Assembly: GCA_026396275.1 (NCBI GenBank) | Contig: JAPLXC010000006.1 | Span: 1-38,194 of the forward strand | DNA from: Candidatus Moraniibacteriota bacterium | GTDB lineage: Bacteria; Patescibacteriota; Minisyncoccia; Moranbacterales; JAPLXC01 | DNA: 38,194 nucleotides | Direction of reading: 5' to 3' | Part shown: one piece after another, positions 24,296-36,354 of the stretch | Layout of the letters: each line of letters starts with the position of its first letter | Numbering within the stretch: the stretch's first letter is position 1 | Position numbers and translations under genes: made by a program | The notes under the pieces: model-generated | Database searches by the model: none | Seen by the model: only the letters and a program-made list of their open reading frames with translations | What the model was told of the DNA's origin: nothing

Positions 24296-25558
24296 TTAGT
24301 GTACCGCACACGATATGCAAGGATCATACGCCCGGATAAAAGCGCGCAGTTTCTTCTCCCTTTCCACTGCCGGCAGATCTATCACCACCGGAACATAGGC
24401 CTCAATATCGTCTTCCAAATGCGACAGAAATTGGGCGGTCGGAGTAATGATGTTGGCATTTTTGACGCAGCCCTTGGCGTCAAGATCAATATGATAATAA
24501 AGCGTTCCTCTGGGTGCTTCCACGGCCGCTGCTGCTGATCCCTCACGGACAGTGTATGATCCGGTAAGAGCTTTACTTAGATCACTATTGGATAATATCC
24601 GCAAAATCCGCGATGACTCTTCCACTGCGGCAATCACTTCTGTCATCTGGTAAAGGACGTTATGAAAAGGATTATAATCCGGAAGTTTGTAATTGAGGCC
24701 TTCTAAAAATTTCATCGCTTGGGGCGGAAGTTTTTTGGCCATATTATTCACCCGGGCGATAGCTCCTACCATATAGCTGGTTTTTCCGTCAGAGACGACG
24801 CGCTTTACAATCTCCCGCGGGCGCTGAAACTCCTGAAATTTCTTCTCAAATTGATCCACCGAGATGCGCAACCCTTTGCTCGAAATAATATCGCCATCAT
24901 AAATAGCATACTCGCCAAACTTATCAAGTGAAACATATTCCGTCGGACGGGAAAACTCGGGGAGTTTTATCCTCTTGAAAAACTCACCCATTTCCAACGC
25001 CAGCGGAAATGCTGCTTCACCGGCGGCAATCAGCCGCTGAATTTTAGCCAATTCCGGAACTTTCTTGAATCCTCCGACCTCATTGGTGAGTGGATGAATC
25101 ACCCGCCCTCCGACAGTCCTCACTATATCAAGTCCGTACTCCCGAAGTTTCAGGATCTTTTTCGTCTCCTTTGGATATTCTTTAGTCAGATTAAGATCAT
25201 TTTCAATATCCAAAAAATCGGCAAGTGACAAAAAGAAGAGGTGAAGCGTATGAGAATGGATAATTTGCCCCCACTCAAGAAGTTTCCGCAGATTCACTGT
25301 TTCATTGCTCACTTCAACTCCGAAAGCGTTTTCAATGGCTTTAATGGAGGTCAAGTTATGGACCACCGGGCAAATCCCGCAAATTCTTTGAGCGATGATC
25401 GGCACGTCTTCATAGCGCCGACCGACTAAAATTCCCTCCATCAGGCGAATTCCTTCCTGGACTTCAAGCTTGGCCGATTTCACGTCACCGCGAACGACAC
25501 TGGCCATAAACCCGGCGTGCCCTTCCATTTTGGCGATGTGATCTATCCTAATATTCAT
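24296..25558 (-). CDS. NiFe hydrogenase large (catalytic) subunit, group 3-like
   Basis: 420 aa. L1 motif RICGICPVVHN (two Cys ligands) and L2 motif DPCISCAVH (two Cys ligands) hold the Ni-Fe(CN)2CO centre, and RIDHIAKMEGHAG supplies the conserved Glu near the N-terminus. The length and IGICPVVH-type L1 suit group 3 (3b, sulfhydrogenase alpha) enzymes. The reading frame ends immediately after the L2 histidine, so the C-terminal peptide that a maturation protease normally removes is absent. The small subunit is upstream, separated by a GxxExxY gene; the HypA-like gene follows. Beta and gamma (diaphorase) subunits are not in the window. Confidence 0.9.
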   Translation of the reverse strand: MNIRIDHIAKMEGHAGFMASVVRGDVKSAKLEVQEGIRLMEGILVGRRYEDVPIIAQRICGICPVVHNLTSIKAIENAFGVEVSNETVNLRKLLEWGQIIHSHTLHLFFLSLADFLDIENDLNLTKEYPKETKKILKLREYGLDIVRTVGGRVIHPLTNEVGGFKKVPELAKIQRLIAAGEAAFPLALEMGEFFKRIKLPEFSRPTEYVSLDKFGEYAIYDGDIISSKGLRISVDQFEKKFQEFQRPREIVKRVVSDGKTSYMVGAIARVNNMAKKLPPQAMKFLEGLNYKLPDYNPFHNVLYQMTEVIAAVEESSRILRILSNSDLSKALTGSYTVREGSAAAAVEAPRGTLYYHIDLDAKGCVKNANIITPTAQFLSHLEDDIEAYVPVVIDLPAVEREKKLRAFIRAYDPCISCAVH

Positions 25559-25560
25559 CC

Positions 25561-26013
25561 TAATTATTTCCGAATATTATCCGAATGTTTTTTGTCTAAT
25601 ATCCGGACTGGTTTAATTTTCTTTTCAGAAAAATTTACTATTATTCCAAGCTCATTTTCAGTAGCGCGTAGATATCTTTTCATCTGGACATAATCCTGTT
25701 TTGTAATGTATCTCTTGCACTTTATATCTAATACTATTTTGTCATCTATCAAAAAATCCAAAATGTTTCCGGCTAATCTTATTTTGTTAAATTTTATCGG
25801 CACTTCAATTTCTCTTTTGTATTTTATGCCATTCTCTTTAAGTAAAACCTCTAAAGCTTCACAGTACTGATTATGTTTGCAAAAGCCACCTAGGGAATTG
25901 TGTACATTAAATAATAAACCATACAATTGATAACATAAATCCTTGTGCAAAATATTTGCCATAAACCATTCGGATTTTAATTCAGATCTATTCGGATTAT
26001 AATTCGGATAAGT
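25561..26013 (-). mobile_element. GxxExxY-bearing word-palindrome element, copy 1
   Basis: The gene is flanked by inverted word arrays: ATTCGGAT or ATTCAGAT at 25968, 25980, 25990 and 26002, against (A)TCCGAAT at 25569 and 25579. The outer edge contains the stop codon of the hydrogenase small subunit (25997-25999); the inner edge reaches the start of the large subunit, whose first codons continue the ATTAGGAT word. It separates two hydrogenase subunits normally adjacent. Confidence 0.6.
25564..25962 (-). CDS. GxxExxY family PD-(D/E)XK protein, copy 1
   Basis: 132 aa from ATG 25962; upstream in-frame codons only translate the word array. Family features: YQLYGLLFNVHNSLG, CEALEVLLKENGIKYKRE, ILDFLIDDKIVLDIKCK (the D...D-x-K nuclease core), YVQMKRYLRATENELGIIVNF. 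The G-x-x-E glutamate of the name is replaced (GGFCKHNQY). The fold predicts a metal-dependent nuclease; the biological role is not known. The gene has no relation to hydrogenases, so its place between the two subunits suggests insertion. Confidence 0.8.
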   Translation of the reverse strand: MANILHKDLCYQLYGLLFNVHNSLGGFCKHNQYCEALEVLLKENGIKYKREIEVPIKFNKIRLAGNILDFLIDDKIVLDIKCKRYITKQDYVQMKRYLRATENELGIIVNFSEKKIKPVRILDKKHSDNIRK

Positions 26014-26746
26014 CATCTCTTAAGCCATAGATTTCGCTTGTATTTTCAAATTCCTCCTCCGTCATCATATCTCTGAGCGTTTCACGCATGGCTTTCACAT
26101 TACCCGTTGGGCGCAGTCCCCGGCAACCCTGGCACATCATCCGGGCCGTGGGGCAAACAGCGTCGCACCCCCCTAGGATCATTGGACCAAAACAGGGCTT
26201 CTTATCTAGCAACAGGCACCTGTTTTTTAATTTCTGACATTCCACGCAAATTGAAAGATCAGGGATTTTAGGAATTTTACCAGCTAAGAGTTCTGGCAGA
26301 TATTTTAAGAATTCCTCACCGTTGATCGGACAGCCCGGAAAAGTAAAATCCACTTTTACAAAGTTATCTACTTCTTTAATTTCAGGATTGGCAATTCCCT
26401 GAACATACCTATACACATACTTGATGGTTTGCTTTTCTTTTTGATAATTCTTAATCCCCGGTACTCCTCCCATTGACGCGCAATTGCCCAGTATTACAAG
26501 TAATTTACTTCGTTTTCTCAATTCCTTCAGGGTTTTGATATTTTCGGAAGTTATCGGGTTTCCTTCCACAATTCCAATATCTATTTTTCTTCCCTTATCT
26601 TCTTCGTCTTCGATCATTCGAAAGTCCACCATTTCCACTCGATTCATTAAGTCAAAAAATCTCTGCCCTAAATCCAAAAGGGCGAATTCACAACCCTCAC
26701 AGGAGGTCAAGCTGACAATGGCGATTTTGGGCTTCGGCTGATCCAT
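25997..26746 (-). CDS. NiFe hydrogenase small (delta) subunit, group 3-like
   Basis: 249 aa from ATG 26746; the longer upstream frame would read through a terminator. IAIVSLTSCEGCEFALLDL gives the first two proximal-cluster Cys, GNCASMGGVPGI the third and FTFPGCPINGEE the fourth. The C-terminal half adds Cys-rich segments (LSICVECQKLKNRC, GGCDAVCPTARMMCQGCRG) that can hold further 4Fe-4S clusters, as in group 3 small subunits. It passes electrons from the Ni-Fe site. The stop codon lies inside the first word of the following GxxExxY element. A 57-aa membrane protein and its terminator precede the gene. Confidence 0.9.
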   Translation of the reverse strand: MDQPKPKIAIVSLTSCEGCEFALLDLGQRFFDLMNRVEMVDFRMIEDEEDKGRKIDIGIVEGNPITSENIKTLKELRKRSKLLVILGNCASMGGVPGIKNYQKEKQTIKYVYRYVQGIANPEIKEVDNFVKVDFTFPGCPINGEEFLKYLPELLAGKIPKIPDLSICVECQKLKNRCLLLDKKPCFGPMILGGCDAVCPTARMMCQGCRGLRPTGNVKAMRETLRDMMTEEEFENTSEIYGLRDDLSEL

Positions 26747-27936: not shown

Positions 27937-27937
27937 A

Positions 27938-28020
27938 TACGAATTATGATTCGAATTACGCCCAAATTACGATACGAATTCGCATTTTAATTCGGATATA
28001 ATTCGCATCTTCATTCGGAT
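27938..28020. repeat. Stuttered palindrome, words TACGAAT / ATTCGGAT
   Basis: TACGAAT, GATTCGAAT and ATACGAAT on the left face ATTCGCAT, ATTCGGAT, ATTCGCAT and ATTCGGAT on the right (spacing about 11-12 bp). It spans from the fba stop codon (28011-28013, inside the array) to 2 bp before the hypC start. Its right half resembles the array of the GxxExxY copy 1 element, so it may be an empty version. Confidence 0.75.
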
Positions 28021-28880
28021 GCCTGCCCGTCGCTCCCAAATATCTTGATTTTTTCCTGAACAGTTTTTTTCACCGCTTCGCGGGCATCGCCCAAAACTTT
28101 TCGGATATCAAAAGAAAGGCCTTCCTGATTGCGAGCCGCGTTAATCAAACTATTCATAAAAGCCAAGCGCAAGCTGGTATCTACGTTAAAACAAACTATC
28201 CCTCTTTTGATAACTTCTTCCACTCGGCTGTTTTCCCAATCCGAAGCACCGTGCAGCACCAGGGGAATATTCGTGTACTTTTTAATCATCTCTAAACGGT
28301 CCAGGTCCGGCTTTGATCGTTCTTTAAAAAATCCGTGAGCATTTCCGATAGCCACCGCCAAAGAATCAACATTGGTTTTGGCCACAAAATCCTCTGCCTG
28401 ACCTGGATCGGTCATATATTTTTCCCATTGAATCTCCCCCATTCCCAATTCGCCGATATAGGGGACATTTCCTAACTCTGCTTGAACGGCTATTCTTTTC
28501 TTGTGGCAAAAATTAACTACTTTTTTGGTCATTTCTAGATTGTCCATGTAATTCTTTCTGGAGCCATCATACATCACCGAGGTAAATCCAATCTCCACTG
28601 CCCGCTGAATAATTTCAAAACTTTTTCCGTGATCAAGGTGAATTCCAACCGGTATTTCCGGAGCATAGAATTCGGCGTCATTTTTTACCAAGTGAAAAAT
28701 TCCTCTTCCGCCGGCGTATTCCATTGTCTTTTCCGTAATCTGGATAATAACCGGGGAGCGCATTTCGCGAGCCCCTTCAATGATAGCGCGGGTGGTTTCA
28801 AGATTCATCGTATTAAAAGCCCCAACGGCATAACCGCCTTCTTGAGCTTTGGCTAATATCTCTTTAACACTGACTATCAT
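28011..28880 (-). CDS. fba: Class II fructose-bisphosphate aldolase
   Basis: 289 aa from ATG 28880 (MIVSVKEILAKAQEGGYAVGAFN); the longer frame would overlap tpiA. Zinc and catalytic residues: PVGIHLDHGKSFE (HxDH), AIGNAHGFFKE and LVLHGASDW (His ligands), CFNVDTSLRLAF near the end. It splits fructose-1,6-bisphosphate into the two triose phosphates and works with tpiA just upstream. The extreme C-terminus (GSDGQASE) is altered: a GC-palindrome fragment and the first word of the intergenic array provide the last residues and stop. Confidence 0.95.
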   Translation of the reverse strand: MIVSVKEILAKAQEGGYAVGAFNTMNLETTRAIIEGAREMRSPVIIQITEKTMEYAGGRGIFHLVKNDAEFYAPEIPVGIHLDHGKSFEIIQRAVEIGFTSVMYDGSRKNYMDNLEMTKKVVNFCHKKRIAVQAELGNVPYIGELGMGEIQWEKYMTDPGQAEDFVAKTNVDSLAVAIGNAHGFFKERSKPDLDRLEMIKKYTNIPLVLHGASDWENSRVEEVIKRGIVCFNVDTSLRLAFMNSLINAARNQEGLSFDIRKVLGDAREAVKKTVQEKIKIFGSDGQASE

Positions 28881-29664: not shown

Positions 29665-30141
29665 AATTCTAATAATGCTAATAAATGCAAATCAACGAAT
29701 TGCTAATCTTTGCAATTTGGATTCAGTACTCTTTTAGGGCTTAAGTATTTTACATTAAAATTAACAAGTAAGCTTAGTCTCTTATTTAACGCAACTAAAT
29801 ATCTTTTTGTCTGATAAAAATCTGAACGGTCAATAATTCTCTTGCATTTCAATTCTAAAATTATTTTATTCTTTATTAAAAAATCAATTCTATTTCTTCC
29901 ATTTTTCTCGCCCATAAAAAATTCTGGCAATATTTTTTCTCTTTCATATTTTATATTGTTTTCTTTTAACTTTCTCTCAAATAAATCACCATGTTGTTTT
30001 TCATTGCAGTATTTCCCTAGATTATTATGAACCTTAAACAATAAGCCATTAATTTTATACGACAATTCCGGATAAACTAATTCTCTCTTCATATAATCAT
30101 TCGCAATTAGCAGATTTGAATTTATTCGTTGATTAGAATTA
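29664..30141 (-). mobile_element. GxxExxY-bearing word-palindrome element, copy 2
   Basis: Terminal inverted repeats TAATTCTAAT (29664-29673) and ATTAGAATTA (30132-30141) are perfect, and similarity continues inward for about 45 bp through CTAAT, CAAAT and CGAAT words. Read on the minus strand, the element begins with the TAA that stops the upstream membrane protein gene and ends with the A of the tpiA ATG. It therefore occupies the intergenic space exactly and carries one GxxExxY gene. Confidence 0.65.
29703..30092 (-). CDS. GxxExxY family PD-(D/E)XK protein, copy 2
   Basis: 129 aa from ATG 30092 (MKRELVYPELSYKINGLLF), a canonical start for the family; an upstream TTG frame would only translate the repeat array. 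Core motifs: FKVHNNLGKYCNEKQ, ERKLKENNIKYERE, RIDFLIKNKIILELKCK (the D...E-x-K nuclease core) and FYQTKRYLVALNKRLSLLVNF, ending PKRVLN. It is a divergent paralogue of copy 1, so the two elements are not a recent duplication. Function unknown. Confidence 0.82.
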   Translation of the reverse strand: MKRELVYPELSYKINGLLFKVHNNLGKYCNEKQHGDLFERKLKENNIKYEREKILPEFFMGEKNGRNRIDFLIKNKIILELKCKRIIDRSDFYQTKRYLVALNKRLSLLVNFNVKYLSPKRVLNPNCKD

Positions 30142-30618
30142 CATTCCAATTGTTACCAACAGCACAATTATCCCTGACACCATCGTACCAAGAAGCAAAA
30201 GTGGCAGGGATTTTTTCAGCGGCACCCCGAACACGAACGCCGCCAGCGCTCCTGTCATTCCCCCAATGAAAGGTACGGGCGTGGCTGCTAAAACGAAAAT
30301 TGCCCACTTGCCATATTGCTCCATTTTTCCGTTTGTTCGCCGCCGGGTGTGCTCAAAAAGCCAATTGAAAAACCTGGAAAATAGGCCGACGTATTTTGAC
30401 AAAAAGCTGGCAATTGGATCAAGGAGCAAAACAATCAAAACCATTGCGAAATATGTTCCGGCTACCGACCAAAGCCAAGCTGAAAGCGCCGAAAGTCCGT
30501 ATAATTTGTAAGCTACTGGAATGGCCGCCCGCAGTTCAGTAACTGGAATGGCGGCAATCAAAAACGTGGAAAGTTCTTTGGGAAAGTGCTGAAATAAGTT
30601 AATTATCCAATCGTGCAT
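30139..30618 (-). CDS. Small multi-drug export-like membrane protein (PF06695 type)
   Basis: 159 aa from ATG 30618 (MHDWIINLFQHF). Marks: FLIAAIPVTELRAAIPVAY, a re-entrant-like repeat, then FVLAATPVPFIGGMTGALAAFVFGVPLKKSL with its Pro/Gly-rich turn, and about four to five membrane segments. The family is named for drug export, but evidence for transport is weak; it belongs to a wide DedA-like group. Its final codons and TAA stop are provided by the terminal repeat of the GxxExxY element, so the native C-terminus may have been replaced. Confidence 0.8.
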   Translation of the reverse strand: MHDWIINLFQHFPKELSTFLIAAIPVTELRAAIPVAYKLYGLSALSAWLWSVAGTYFAMVLIVLLLDPIASFLSKYVGLFSRFFNWLFEHTRRRTNGKMEQYGKWAIFVLAATPVPFIGGMTGALAAFVFGVPLKKSLPLLLLGTMVSGIIVLLVTIGM

Positions 30619-34347: not shown

Positions 34348-35001
34348 TTATTTACCAGAACGCAATTTTTTGGTGATAAATTTAAAAATTTCATCAACGG
34401 CTTTTTCTCCCTTTGCTTCAACTAAAATGCCTTTTCGACGAAAATAGCTGATCACAGGGGATGTTTCCTTGTGAAAGACCGCCAGCCGTTTTCTAATGCC
34501 GCGAGGCGTATCATCAAGACGCCTCTGCACTTCTCCTTGACAAACAGGACAGCCATAGCGGGGATTTTTGATGTCTTTTCCTAAAACAAAACGGGCGAAA
34601 CAGCGGGAGCACTGATAGCGCCGCGAGATTCTTCTTACTGATTCATGAGAAGAAATATTGAGATAAATAACTCTGTCAATCACCCGGTGATAATAATTAA
34701 GCGCTTTTTCCACGTCGTCAATTTGTCCTACTCGGCGCGGGGCGCCGTCAAGAATAATTCCCCTTCGGGAAGGAACTTTCTTTAGTTCTTTCTTTAAAAC
34801 ATGAAATATAATCTCATCCGGAACAAGTTCCTGTTTGGCATTAATTGTCTTGTTGACTCTTTTCCCAAGAACCGTTTTATCTTTCGCTGTTTGACGCAGT
34901 GCCAATCCAATATCAATATGGACTAAATTGAATTTTTTCACCAAAAAGGCAGCTTGGGTTCCTTTGCCGCTTCCGGGAGGACCTAATATAATTAAATTCA
35001 T
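34348..35001 (-). CDS. adk: Adenylate kinase with zinc-binding lid
   Basis: 217 aa. LGPPGSGKGTQAAFLV is the P-loop; GIILDGAPRRVGQID is the AMP-side segment (APR where most have FPR); the lid has CSRC and CPVC, a four-Cys zinc site; DDTPRGIRKRL contains the lid arginines. It balances ATP, ADP and AMP. Its position between secY and map is the standard spc order. Confidence 0.95.
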   Translation of the reverse strand: MNLIILGPPGSGKGTQAAFLVKKFNLVHIDIGLALRQTAKDKTVLGKRVNKTINAKQELVPDEIIFHVLKKELKKVPSRRGIILDGAPRRVGQIDDVEKALNYYHRVIDRVIYLNISSHESVRRISRRYQCSRCFARFVLGKDIKNPRYGCPVCQGEVQRRLDDTPRGIRKRLAVFHKETSPVISYFRRKGILVEAKGEKAVDEIFKFITKKLRSGK

Positions 35002-35003
35002 AA

Positions 35004-35075
35004 ATTTCTAATCGAAAAAAACAAATTTCTAATGTATCATGTATTCGTATATTCGTATGTGATTCGTAATTCGTA
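35004..35075. repeat. Stuttered palindrome, words ATTTCTAAT / ATTCGTAT
   Basis: ATTTCTAAT at 35004 and 35025; ATTCGTAT at 35043 and 35051, ATTCGTA at 35062 and 35069. It fills the gap between the secY stop (35083) and the adk start (35001), ending 2 bp before the adk start. Confidence 0.7.
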
Positions 35076-35082
35076 GAGAGTT

Positions 35083-36354
35083 TCAAAATCCTTCGTAATC
35101 TCTCATTACCAGCTGGCTCTCAATCTGCTTGATGGTTTCAATTACCACCGAAACCACAATTAATATACTAGTTCCGCCGATTGTCAGAGCTCCAATTCCG
35201 GTAGCCCCTTGAATAGCCAGCGGGAGAACAGCAATAGTGCCCAAAAACAGCGAACCAGTAAGGGTGATTCGATTCATTATTCTGTGAAGATACTCGGCTG
35301 TGGTTCTTCCGGGGCGGATACCGGGAACATATCCTCCCTGTTTTTGCAGGTTTTCAGATATCTGATTGGGATCAAAAACCACCGCCGTGTAAAAATAAGT
35401 GAAAAGCACCACTAGTATGAAGTAGGCCGCTCCGTAAAACAGCTGGTTTTGAAAAACCCGGTTGACCAATGTGGCAATGTTTACCACCGTCTCATTGGGA
35501 ACTTGCGTCAAAAAACTGGCAATCATTCCGGGAAAAAGCATTATGGAAACCGCAAAGATGATGGGAATAACTCCGGCTTGATTGACGCGCAGAGGTAAAT
35601 GAGTTGACATCCCGCCGTACATTTTGTTTCCCCGGATGCGCTTGGCATAGGATACCGGGATATTTCTCTGTCCTTCAGACACTATCACTACTCCGGTGAT
35701 GGTAATCAATGCTACTGCGGCAAAAATGAGATAAGTGAAGAGCTTGGTAGGATCGAAAGTAGTGATTAATTGAGAAGCTGCTGAAGGAAGGCTGGCAACA
35801 ATGCCGGCAAAGATAATCAAAGATACACCATTGCCAATTCCTTTTTCGGTAATTAATTCTCCCAACCACATCAGAAATATCGTTCCGGCAGTGGCAATAA
35901 CAATAATTACCGCCATATCAAAGGGAGCCAGTGTCCCCAGCACCTGCTGGGAGCGAAGAATAGTTATCATTCCAAAGGTCTGAAGTGCCGCCAGCGGCAC
36001 TGTCAGCCAGCGGGTCCACATATTGAATTTTTGCCGGCCGGCTTCCCCTTCTTCTTTGTAAAGCTGCTCCAGCCGCGGGACAATCATGGTGAGAAGCTGC
36101 ATAATGATTGAAGCAGTGATGTAGGGACCGACTCCCAGAAGAACAATGGAGATATTGGCCAGCCCGCCTCCGGAAAAAATATTGAGAAGTCCGAGAAGCT
36201 GGTTCCCTTCAAAAAACTCTTTGAGTCTTGTCACGTCGACTCCGGGCAATGGAATATTGGCCGCAATCCGAAAAACAACCAGAAGTGCCAGGATAAAAAG
36301 AATTTTATTGCGCAGTTCTCTAACTTTGAAGATTTGGATGATTTTTTCTAGCAT
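35083..36354 (-). CDS. secY: Protein translocase subunit SecY
   Basis: 423 aa with ten predicted membrane helices. Signatures: RIAANIPLPGVDV after helix 1, plug and helix 2 region LLNIFSGGGLANISIVLLGVGPYITASIIMQ (read in parts), GNGVSLIIFAGI, and GIRPGRTTAEYL in the cytoplasmic loop that contacts the ribosome. SecY is the channel through which proteins cross or enter the membrane. It follows rplO as in most bacteria. Confidence 0.97.
   Translation of the reverse strand: MLEKIIQIFKVRELRNKILFILALLVVFRIAANIPLPGVDVTRLKEFFEGNQLLGLLNIFSGGGLANISIVLLGVGPYITASIIMQLLTMIVPRLEQLYKEEGEAGRQKFNMWTRWLTVPLAALQTFGMITILRSQQVLGTLAPFDMAVIIVIATAGTIFLMWLGELITEKGIGNGVSLIIFAGIVASLPSAASQLITTFDPTKLFTYLIFAAVALITITGVVIVSEGQRNIPVSYAKRIRGNKMYGGMSTHLPLRVNQAGVIPIIFAVSIMLFPGMIASFLTQVPNETVVNIATLVNRVFQNQLFYGAAYFILVVLFTYFYTAVVFDPNQISENLQKQGGYVPGIRPGRTTAEYLHRIMNRITLTGSLFLGTIAVLPLAIQGATGIGALTIGGTSILIVVSVVIETIKQIESQLVMRDYEGF

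Follow-up and report, generated by a model that had tools for sequence, protein, structure and literature searches.

Inverted short-word arrays around a GxxExxY gene between hydrogenase subunit genes, and gene-free arrays in operon gaps, in a relative of Candidatus Moranbacteria

Among described systems, REPIN–RAYT (PMC3116915, PMC8049555) resembles the locus analysed here in several ways: a single-copy, largely vertically inherited gene is flanked by its own palindromic word, the word type is specific to the gene clade, non-autonomous inverted repeats of ~100 bp, extragenic and hairpin-capable, are dispersed through the genome (as they are here), and the repeats are commoner in genomes with the gene (here five of six genomes with it and 0 of 107 without). 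However, the present enzyme is a predicted PD-(D/E)XK, Cas4-like nuclease and not an HUH/Y1 transposase, where REPINs have two REP palindromes its repeats have three to four short words per arm, 11–12 bp apart, and its arrays fill whole stop-to-start gaps and enter codons. Because the enzyme differs, we do not count the present system as a member of REPIN–RAYT, though its behaviour is close. Bacterial MITEs and small mobile repeats (RU-1 and RU-2; PMC2759123, PMC2229807) are likewise short, inverted, gene-free, dispersed and intergenic, but here we found neither a target-site duplication nor a parent IS encoding a classical transposase, and the flanks belong to a nuclease gene, so the locus does not qualify as one of these. 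rRNA intervening sequences (IVS) have complementary sequences at their borders and contain an S23 ORF (PMC4990558); they share with the present elements a small ORF within inverted terminal repeats and a selfish character, but the present elements lie in protein operons, encode another protein and have short-word arrays rather than one long stem.

The protein encoded at this locus is a member of the 'GxxExxY protein' family (TIGR04256/PF13366), which is annotated across many genomes and has no assigned function. Our search of the literature on GxxExxY elements, PDDEXK_3 and inverted repeats in the Candidate Phyla Radiation returned no description of such elements and no link between GxxExxY and arrays.

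The window (the whole stretch of 38,194 nucleotides that was analysed) comes from a relative of Candidatus Moranbacteria, an ultra-small bacterium. On its minus strand, between 24,296 and 26,746, the order is small subunit (PF01058), GxxExxY gene (TIGR04256), large subunit (PF00374). The features are:

24296..25558, minus strand: hydrogenase large subunit (PF00374), N-terminus MNIRID
25545..25586, minus strand: 3' word array, inverted with respect to the 5' array; gene-strand words ATTCGGAT, ATTCGGAA, ATTAGGAT, ATTAGGAT
25564..25962, minus strand: GxxExxY (putative nuclease) gene, type i, 132 aa (TIGR04256/PF13366)
25968..26009, minus strand: 5' word array, ATCCGAAT three times plus one ATCTGAAT on the gene strand, spacing 12/10/12
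25997..26746, minus strand: hydrogenase small subunit (ShyD/HydD-like, 3b-type NiFe; PF01058, NF040831), whose final codons are array words
27937..28022, no strand assigned: solo array of the type-i word, 7–8 words, hairpin z −4.2, between a class II aldolase gene (stop 28011) and a hypC-like ORF (start 27936)
29666..30150, minus strand: the window's other GxxExxY element, word ATTAGNAT/ATTTGNAT, gene 29703–30092
35052..35076, minus strand: type-ii array motif (CTACGAATTACGAAT...TACGAA), lying in a gap flanked by an ORF that ends at 35001 and one that starts at 35083

The type-i gene is framed by head-to-head ATCCGAAT/ATTCGGAT arrays of an 8-letter word with 10–12 bp spacing. On the plus strand, the right side carries ATTCGGAT at 25968, 25990 and 26002 and ATTCAGAT, with one mismatch, at 25980 (spacings 12, 10 and 12); the left side carries ATCCGAAT at 25579, TTCCGAAT at 25568 and ATCCTAAT at 25557 and 25545. 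A first-pass annotation, made from the sequence alone, had reported that a GxxExxY gene with inverted word arrays splits the two hydrogenase subunits, and that four words recur with periods 12, 10 and 12. The overall observation is confirmed, with the clarification that the gene sits between the subunit genes, both of which are intact and internally uninterrupted; the periods are right, but only three of the four words are exact. A chance origin of the arrays can be rejected: three copies of ATTCGGAT in 60 bp occurred in none of 1000 Markov shuffles of the window (the maximum was two), and ATTCGGAT is the only 8-mer in the whole window with three occurrences inside 45 bp. Slippage tandem repeats are ruled out as well, given the inverted arms and the non-repeated spacers. 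A plasmid origin was also rejected (megablast gave no match).

The type-i gene likely starts at the ATG at 25962 (MANILHK), because the extension of the ORF to an ATG at 26016 merely traverses the array. Its product scores 81.1 bits against TIGR04256 (curated cut-off 35), although the Glu of the namesake motif is replaced (GGFCKHNQY). The residues expected of a PD-(D/E)XK catalytic site (D69, D79-x-K81, Q93 and Y97) are intact, and D69, K81, Q93, Y97 and R120 are invariant in an alignment of 68 sequences (A1). The AlphaFold2 model has a pLDDT of 91; its top Foldseek match is Cas4 SSO0001 (4ic1), with the lambda-exonuclease family also close and tRNA splicing endonucleases among the weak matches, while a profile search gave weak matches only (the best to T7 endonuclease I, E 0.02). 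It is thus likely that the protein is an active nuclease, an inference from motif and predicted fold; its substrate is untested. The two GxxExxY proteins of the window are 42% identical, in agreement with the first-pass statement that they are divergent.

We detected the large subunit in 56 of the 113 genomes of the order and examined the junction at 30 loci. At eight of them the subunits are 25–100 bp apart with no intervening gene; these are the uninterrupted small–large pairs that the first-pass annotation had proposed to look for in relatives. It had also named what would refute its reading, a GxxExxY gene between the subunits without an array in all relatives, and this was not seen. A type-i gene with the same word occupies the gap at six loci (including our own) and in a seventh genome, a type-ii GxxExxY gene (word TACGAA) at three, and a gene-free array at two. 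Given these varied occupants, we regard the site as a hotspot. An unrelated metalloprotease-like gene (~310–350 aa, with a HELGHA motif) was also noted in the gap at five loci, and one of the type-i loci is listed with it too.

All seven genomes known to have the type-i gene, which span several families, have it in the hydrogenase gap; a collection scan with the type-i alignment yielded six genomes with names, of which three are titled Candidatus Moranbacteria/Moraniibacteriota. Identity among type-i proteins (60–77%) is near that among the hydrogenase large subunits (65–81%), and we therefore consider it likely that the gene is old and mainly vertically inherited, with losses. Gaps without the element exist, but a precise empty site cannot be drawn from them because the codons at their flanks are different; the hydrogenase and ribosomal gaps that we examined show no target-site duplication.

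The arrays reach into both neighbouring genes. The word at 25545–25552 lies within codons 2–5 of the large subunit and that at 25557–25564 overlaps its start codon, as the first-pass annotation had claimed; the coding end of the small subunit is likewise affected, with the word at 26002–26009 within its final codons. That annotation had further proposed to compare large-subunit N-termini with and without the element, and these do differ: ATTCGTAT or ATTAGGAT encodes MNIRI/MQIRI where the element is present, and MNIKI/MQIKI (I-K-I), mostly encoded by ATAAAAAT, stands where it is absent. Codons 3–5 read ATT-CGT-AT or ATT-AGG-AT (I-R-I) in seven out of seven type-i genomes, compared with one out of 25 other loci. 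The sole exception is G065, a congener in which a type-ii element is present and the old right end, ATAGTATATGAATATTCGTAT, is kept; we conclude that the type-ii element there replaced an earlier type-i element. The small subunit ends in IEDWEKK without the element and in ISEWESK or LSEL with it, and the ISEWESK ending spells ATCCGAAT-GGGA-ATCCAAAT. Since G026 (type i) and G065 (type ii) differ over exactly this block while their flanks are 94–97% identical, the change in that pair was the replacement of a segment; the first entry of the words into codons remains unexplained.

The array is peculiar neither to the hydrogenase locus nor to the GxxExxY gene, as gene-free copies are present in many operon gaps. 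The pattern ATTCGNNT repeated three times occurs 20 times in the source genome and its reversed control not once, and most of these sites are gene-free. Such solo arrays are ~75–115 bp long with 3–4 words per arm, 11–12 bp apart; as a rule they fill the operon gap between one gene's stop codon and the following gene's start codon, flush with the codons. At least five strict type-i solo arrays were found in five of the six genomes with a type-i gene versus 0 of 107 without it (p 4e-8); G002 has the gene and no array by the strict pattern. Within genus g21, there are nine and five matches in the two gene-bearing species and none in the four that lack it. For type ii, 39 of the 113 genomes have arrays, and every one of the nine genomes with a type-ii gene is among them (p 4e-5). 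All of these counts derive from pattern searches and retrieved sequence stretches, and counts for the words ATTTGTA and ATTAGTA were too low for testing.

Copies at different ribosomal gaps of G020 are 94–99% identical, although the coding DNA of G020 and G026 is only ~80% identical. Across the ribosomal operons of six congeneric species, a single gap is occupied by array families that differ between species, or is merely 13–51 bp long. Remnants of type-i right arms are present in species without the gene (e.g. between rpmC and rpsQ, and between rpsN and rpsH), an indication of decay or overwriting after gene loss. Eight out of nine arrays tested fold as RNA with z −2.4 to −5.3, and the differences between the arms at word position 4 do not preserve pairing. 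We also noticed at least five further array families in the stop-to-start gaps of the ribosomal operon in these six genomes (words TCGCGAAT/ATTAGTG, AAAGCGC/TTCGTAG, TGTTCTAA/AATTAGAAC, CATAACATAGAGC/GTTCCATGC and CTACGAATTACGAA); for most of them, no GxxExxY partner was identified.

The association of GxxExxY genes with inverted words extends beyond type i. Four GxxExxY genes are present in the 810-kb source genome, and a different word makes up the inverted arrays at each. We fetched 99 GxxExxY loci from 46 of the 113 genomes of the order and compared 98: the upstream flank against its own reverse-complemented downstream flank fell in the top 5% of comparisons at 55 of the 98 loci, as against nine of 98 for distant control flanks, and the signal was repeated in other lineages of the phylum (13 out of 26 loci, controls three out of 26). 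Similarity of flank words is correlated with protein similarity (Mantel r 0.26, 0 of 500 permutations; pairs below 60% identity from different genomes), and a control at flanks of 250–410 bp gave no signal (r 0.02). Each GxxExxY subfamily tends towards its own inverted flank word; because the words track the protein subfamily, the first-pass suggestion of a possibly separate history for each element and its word is supported. Loci of one order are, however, non-independent samples, and the subfamily labels were drawn partly from the flank words.

Two further observations rest partly on inspection by eye. GxxExxY domains lie in-frame inside RecG, LepA and LeuRS at eight loci (hosts recognised by eye from their translations), with inverted words in the coding sequence on both sides, most clearly in LepA (GCGGAT three times per side). 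Three genes of the source genome encoding four-helix-bundle proteins (TIGR02436) have apparent inverted word flanks, judged by eye only (at L085, CATGAAACATGAAAC and GCTTCATGTTTCATG); the one at L084:1501–1824 has an internal TAA and is a possible pseudogene. In RecG, GxxExxY domains occupy one place in genomes of different families.

On balance we favour, with moderate confidence, a REPIN–RAYT-like partnership between a GxxExxY nuclease gene and dispersed non-autonomous inverted arrays; the evidence is comparative only, and both mobility and DNA cutting are inferred. In this view, the gene and its flanking inverted arrays would form one element, and the single-domain PD-(D/E)XK nuclease would be the word-specific partner of the gene-free arrays of ~75–115 bp. 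The nuclease would bind its word and cut DNA at arrays or at stop–start gaps; repair would then copy an array in. Arrays would disperse through the genome into operon stop-to-start gaps, with the nuclease gene staying in single copy. What has been shown is that the arrays are inverted, that their words are subfamily-specific, that solo arrays and cognate gene co-occur, that near-identical copies lie at different gaps, that one gap has alternative occupants in congeners and that words extend into flanking codons. Several points speak against this reading: we saw neither a transposition intermediate nor a target-site duplication nor polymorphism between strains, the arrays replace the entire gap rather than sitting within a preserved empty site, the type-i gene is confined to one site in seven genomes and so shows no sign of movement itself, G002 has the gene without a strict-pattern array, and several array families in the same gaps (e.g. 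those with TGTTCTAA and TCGCGAAT words) have no identified GxxExxY partner. It is possible that an array does not require GxxExxY specifically, given the apparent inverted flanks of the four-helix-bundle genes, and co-occurrence alone would also be compatible with a regulatory partnership.

The main rival, which remains possible, is that the arrays are RNA signals: the head-to-head words would form mRNA hairpins processed by GxxExxY or RNase III, making up a selected regulon and not a mobile family. In its favour are the position of the arrays in operon stop-to-start gaps, usually flush with codons, the folding of eight of the nine arrays, the co-occurrence of gene and arrays and the fact that the PD-(D/E)XK fold also covers tRNA splicing endonucleases (weak matches here). 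But the same gap in congeners holds different word families or no array, 94–99% identity between gaps is a sign of copying, and arrays also frame in-frame insertions in essential proteins; simple selection for RNA hairpins has some folding support, yet the arm variants at word position 4 do not keep pairing. A homing-type selfish gene, copied in by repair after its nuclease has cleaved a single conserved site (the hydrogenase junction in this case; RecG, LepA or LeuRS in others), with solo arrays as decayed remains, would fit the single type-i site in seven genomes of several families, the shared place of the RecG domains in different families and the hotspot for different types; we find it unlikely, as solo arrays far outnumber gene sites and occupy many other gaps, and the identity of type-i proteins, near that of the hydrogenase, suggests vertical descent.

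Two other explanations have very little to recommend them. The arrays could be ordinary REPINs moved by Y1 (RAYT) transposases with GxxExxY as a passenger, and Y1_Tnp genes are indeed present in five out of five array-rich genomes; however, four of the five Y1 loci examined have no such array (only L254 has CGAATTCGAAT nearby), several have unrelated palindromes of their own (e.g. ACTTGGAAACTCGGTTTCCAAGTG in L255), and the words follow the GxxExxY subfamily, although the presence of arrays and of Y1 genes was not compared across all genomes. RAYT as the array partner is weakened by these five loci, not excluded. The Y1 genes at L254 (G000:C18) and L255 (G103:C62), with palindromes CGAGGACCGTCCTCG and ACTTGGAAACTCGGTTTCCAAGTG, appear to be classical REP systems existing beside the arrays. 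The elements could also be relatives of rRNA IVS, ORF-bearing stem-loops that RNase III would here excise from mRNA, with GxxExxY replacing the S23 four-helix-bundle ORF. The three four-helix-bundle genes with apparent inverted flanks, seen by eye, fit this idea, but the location is a protein operon and not rRNA, the ORF is GxxExxY, and, if excision were not followed by religation, operon mRNAs and the in-frame insertions in RecG, LepA and LeuRS would be broken.

Beyond the favoured partnership, there is a bolder reading that we think slightly more apt to be wrong than right: GxxExxY nucleases and four-helix-bundle proteins would drive a class of word-array elements in Patescibacteria that is large and so far undescribed. 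Every nuclease subfamily would read a short word of its own, and the elements would spread through operon gaps, would be able to sit in-frame in essential proteins (RecG, LepA and LeuRS), their codons carrying the array, and could rewrite the coding ends of their neighbours. A subfamily-specific DNA word, present beside the gene and at dispersed sites, is a testable substrate code for the GxxExxY family, which has no known function. If the partnership is true, it would add a new enzyme class to the mobile elements that occupy operon gaps in bacteria, and would do so in supposedly streamlined genomes; it would also explain the patterned repeats in the operon gaps of this order, whose families differ between close species.
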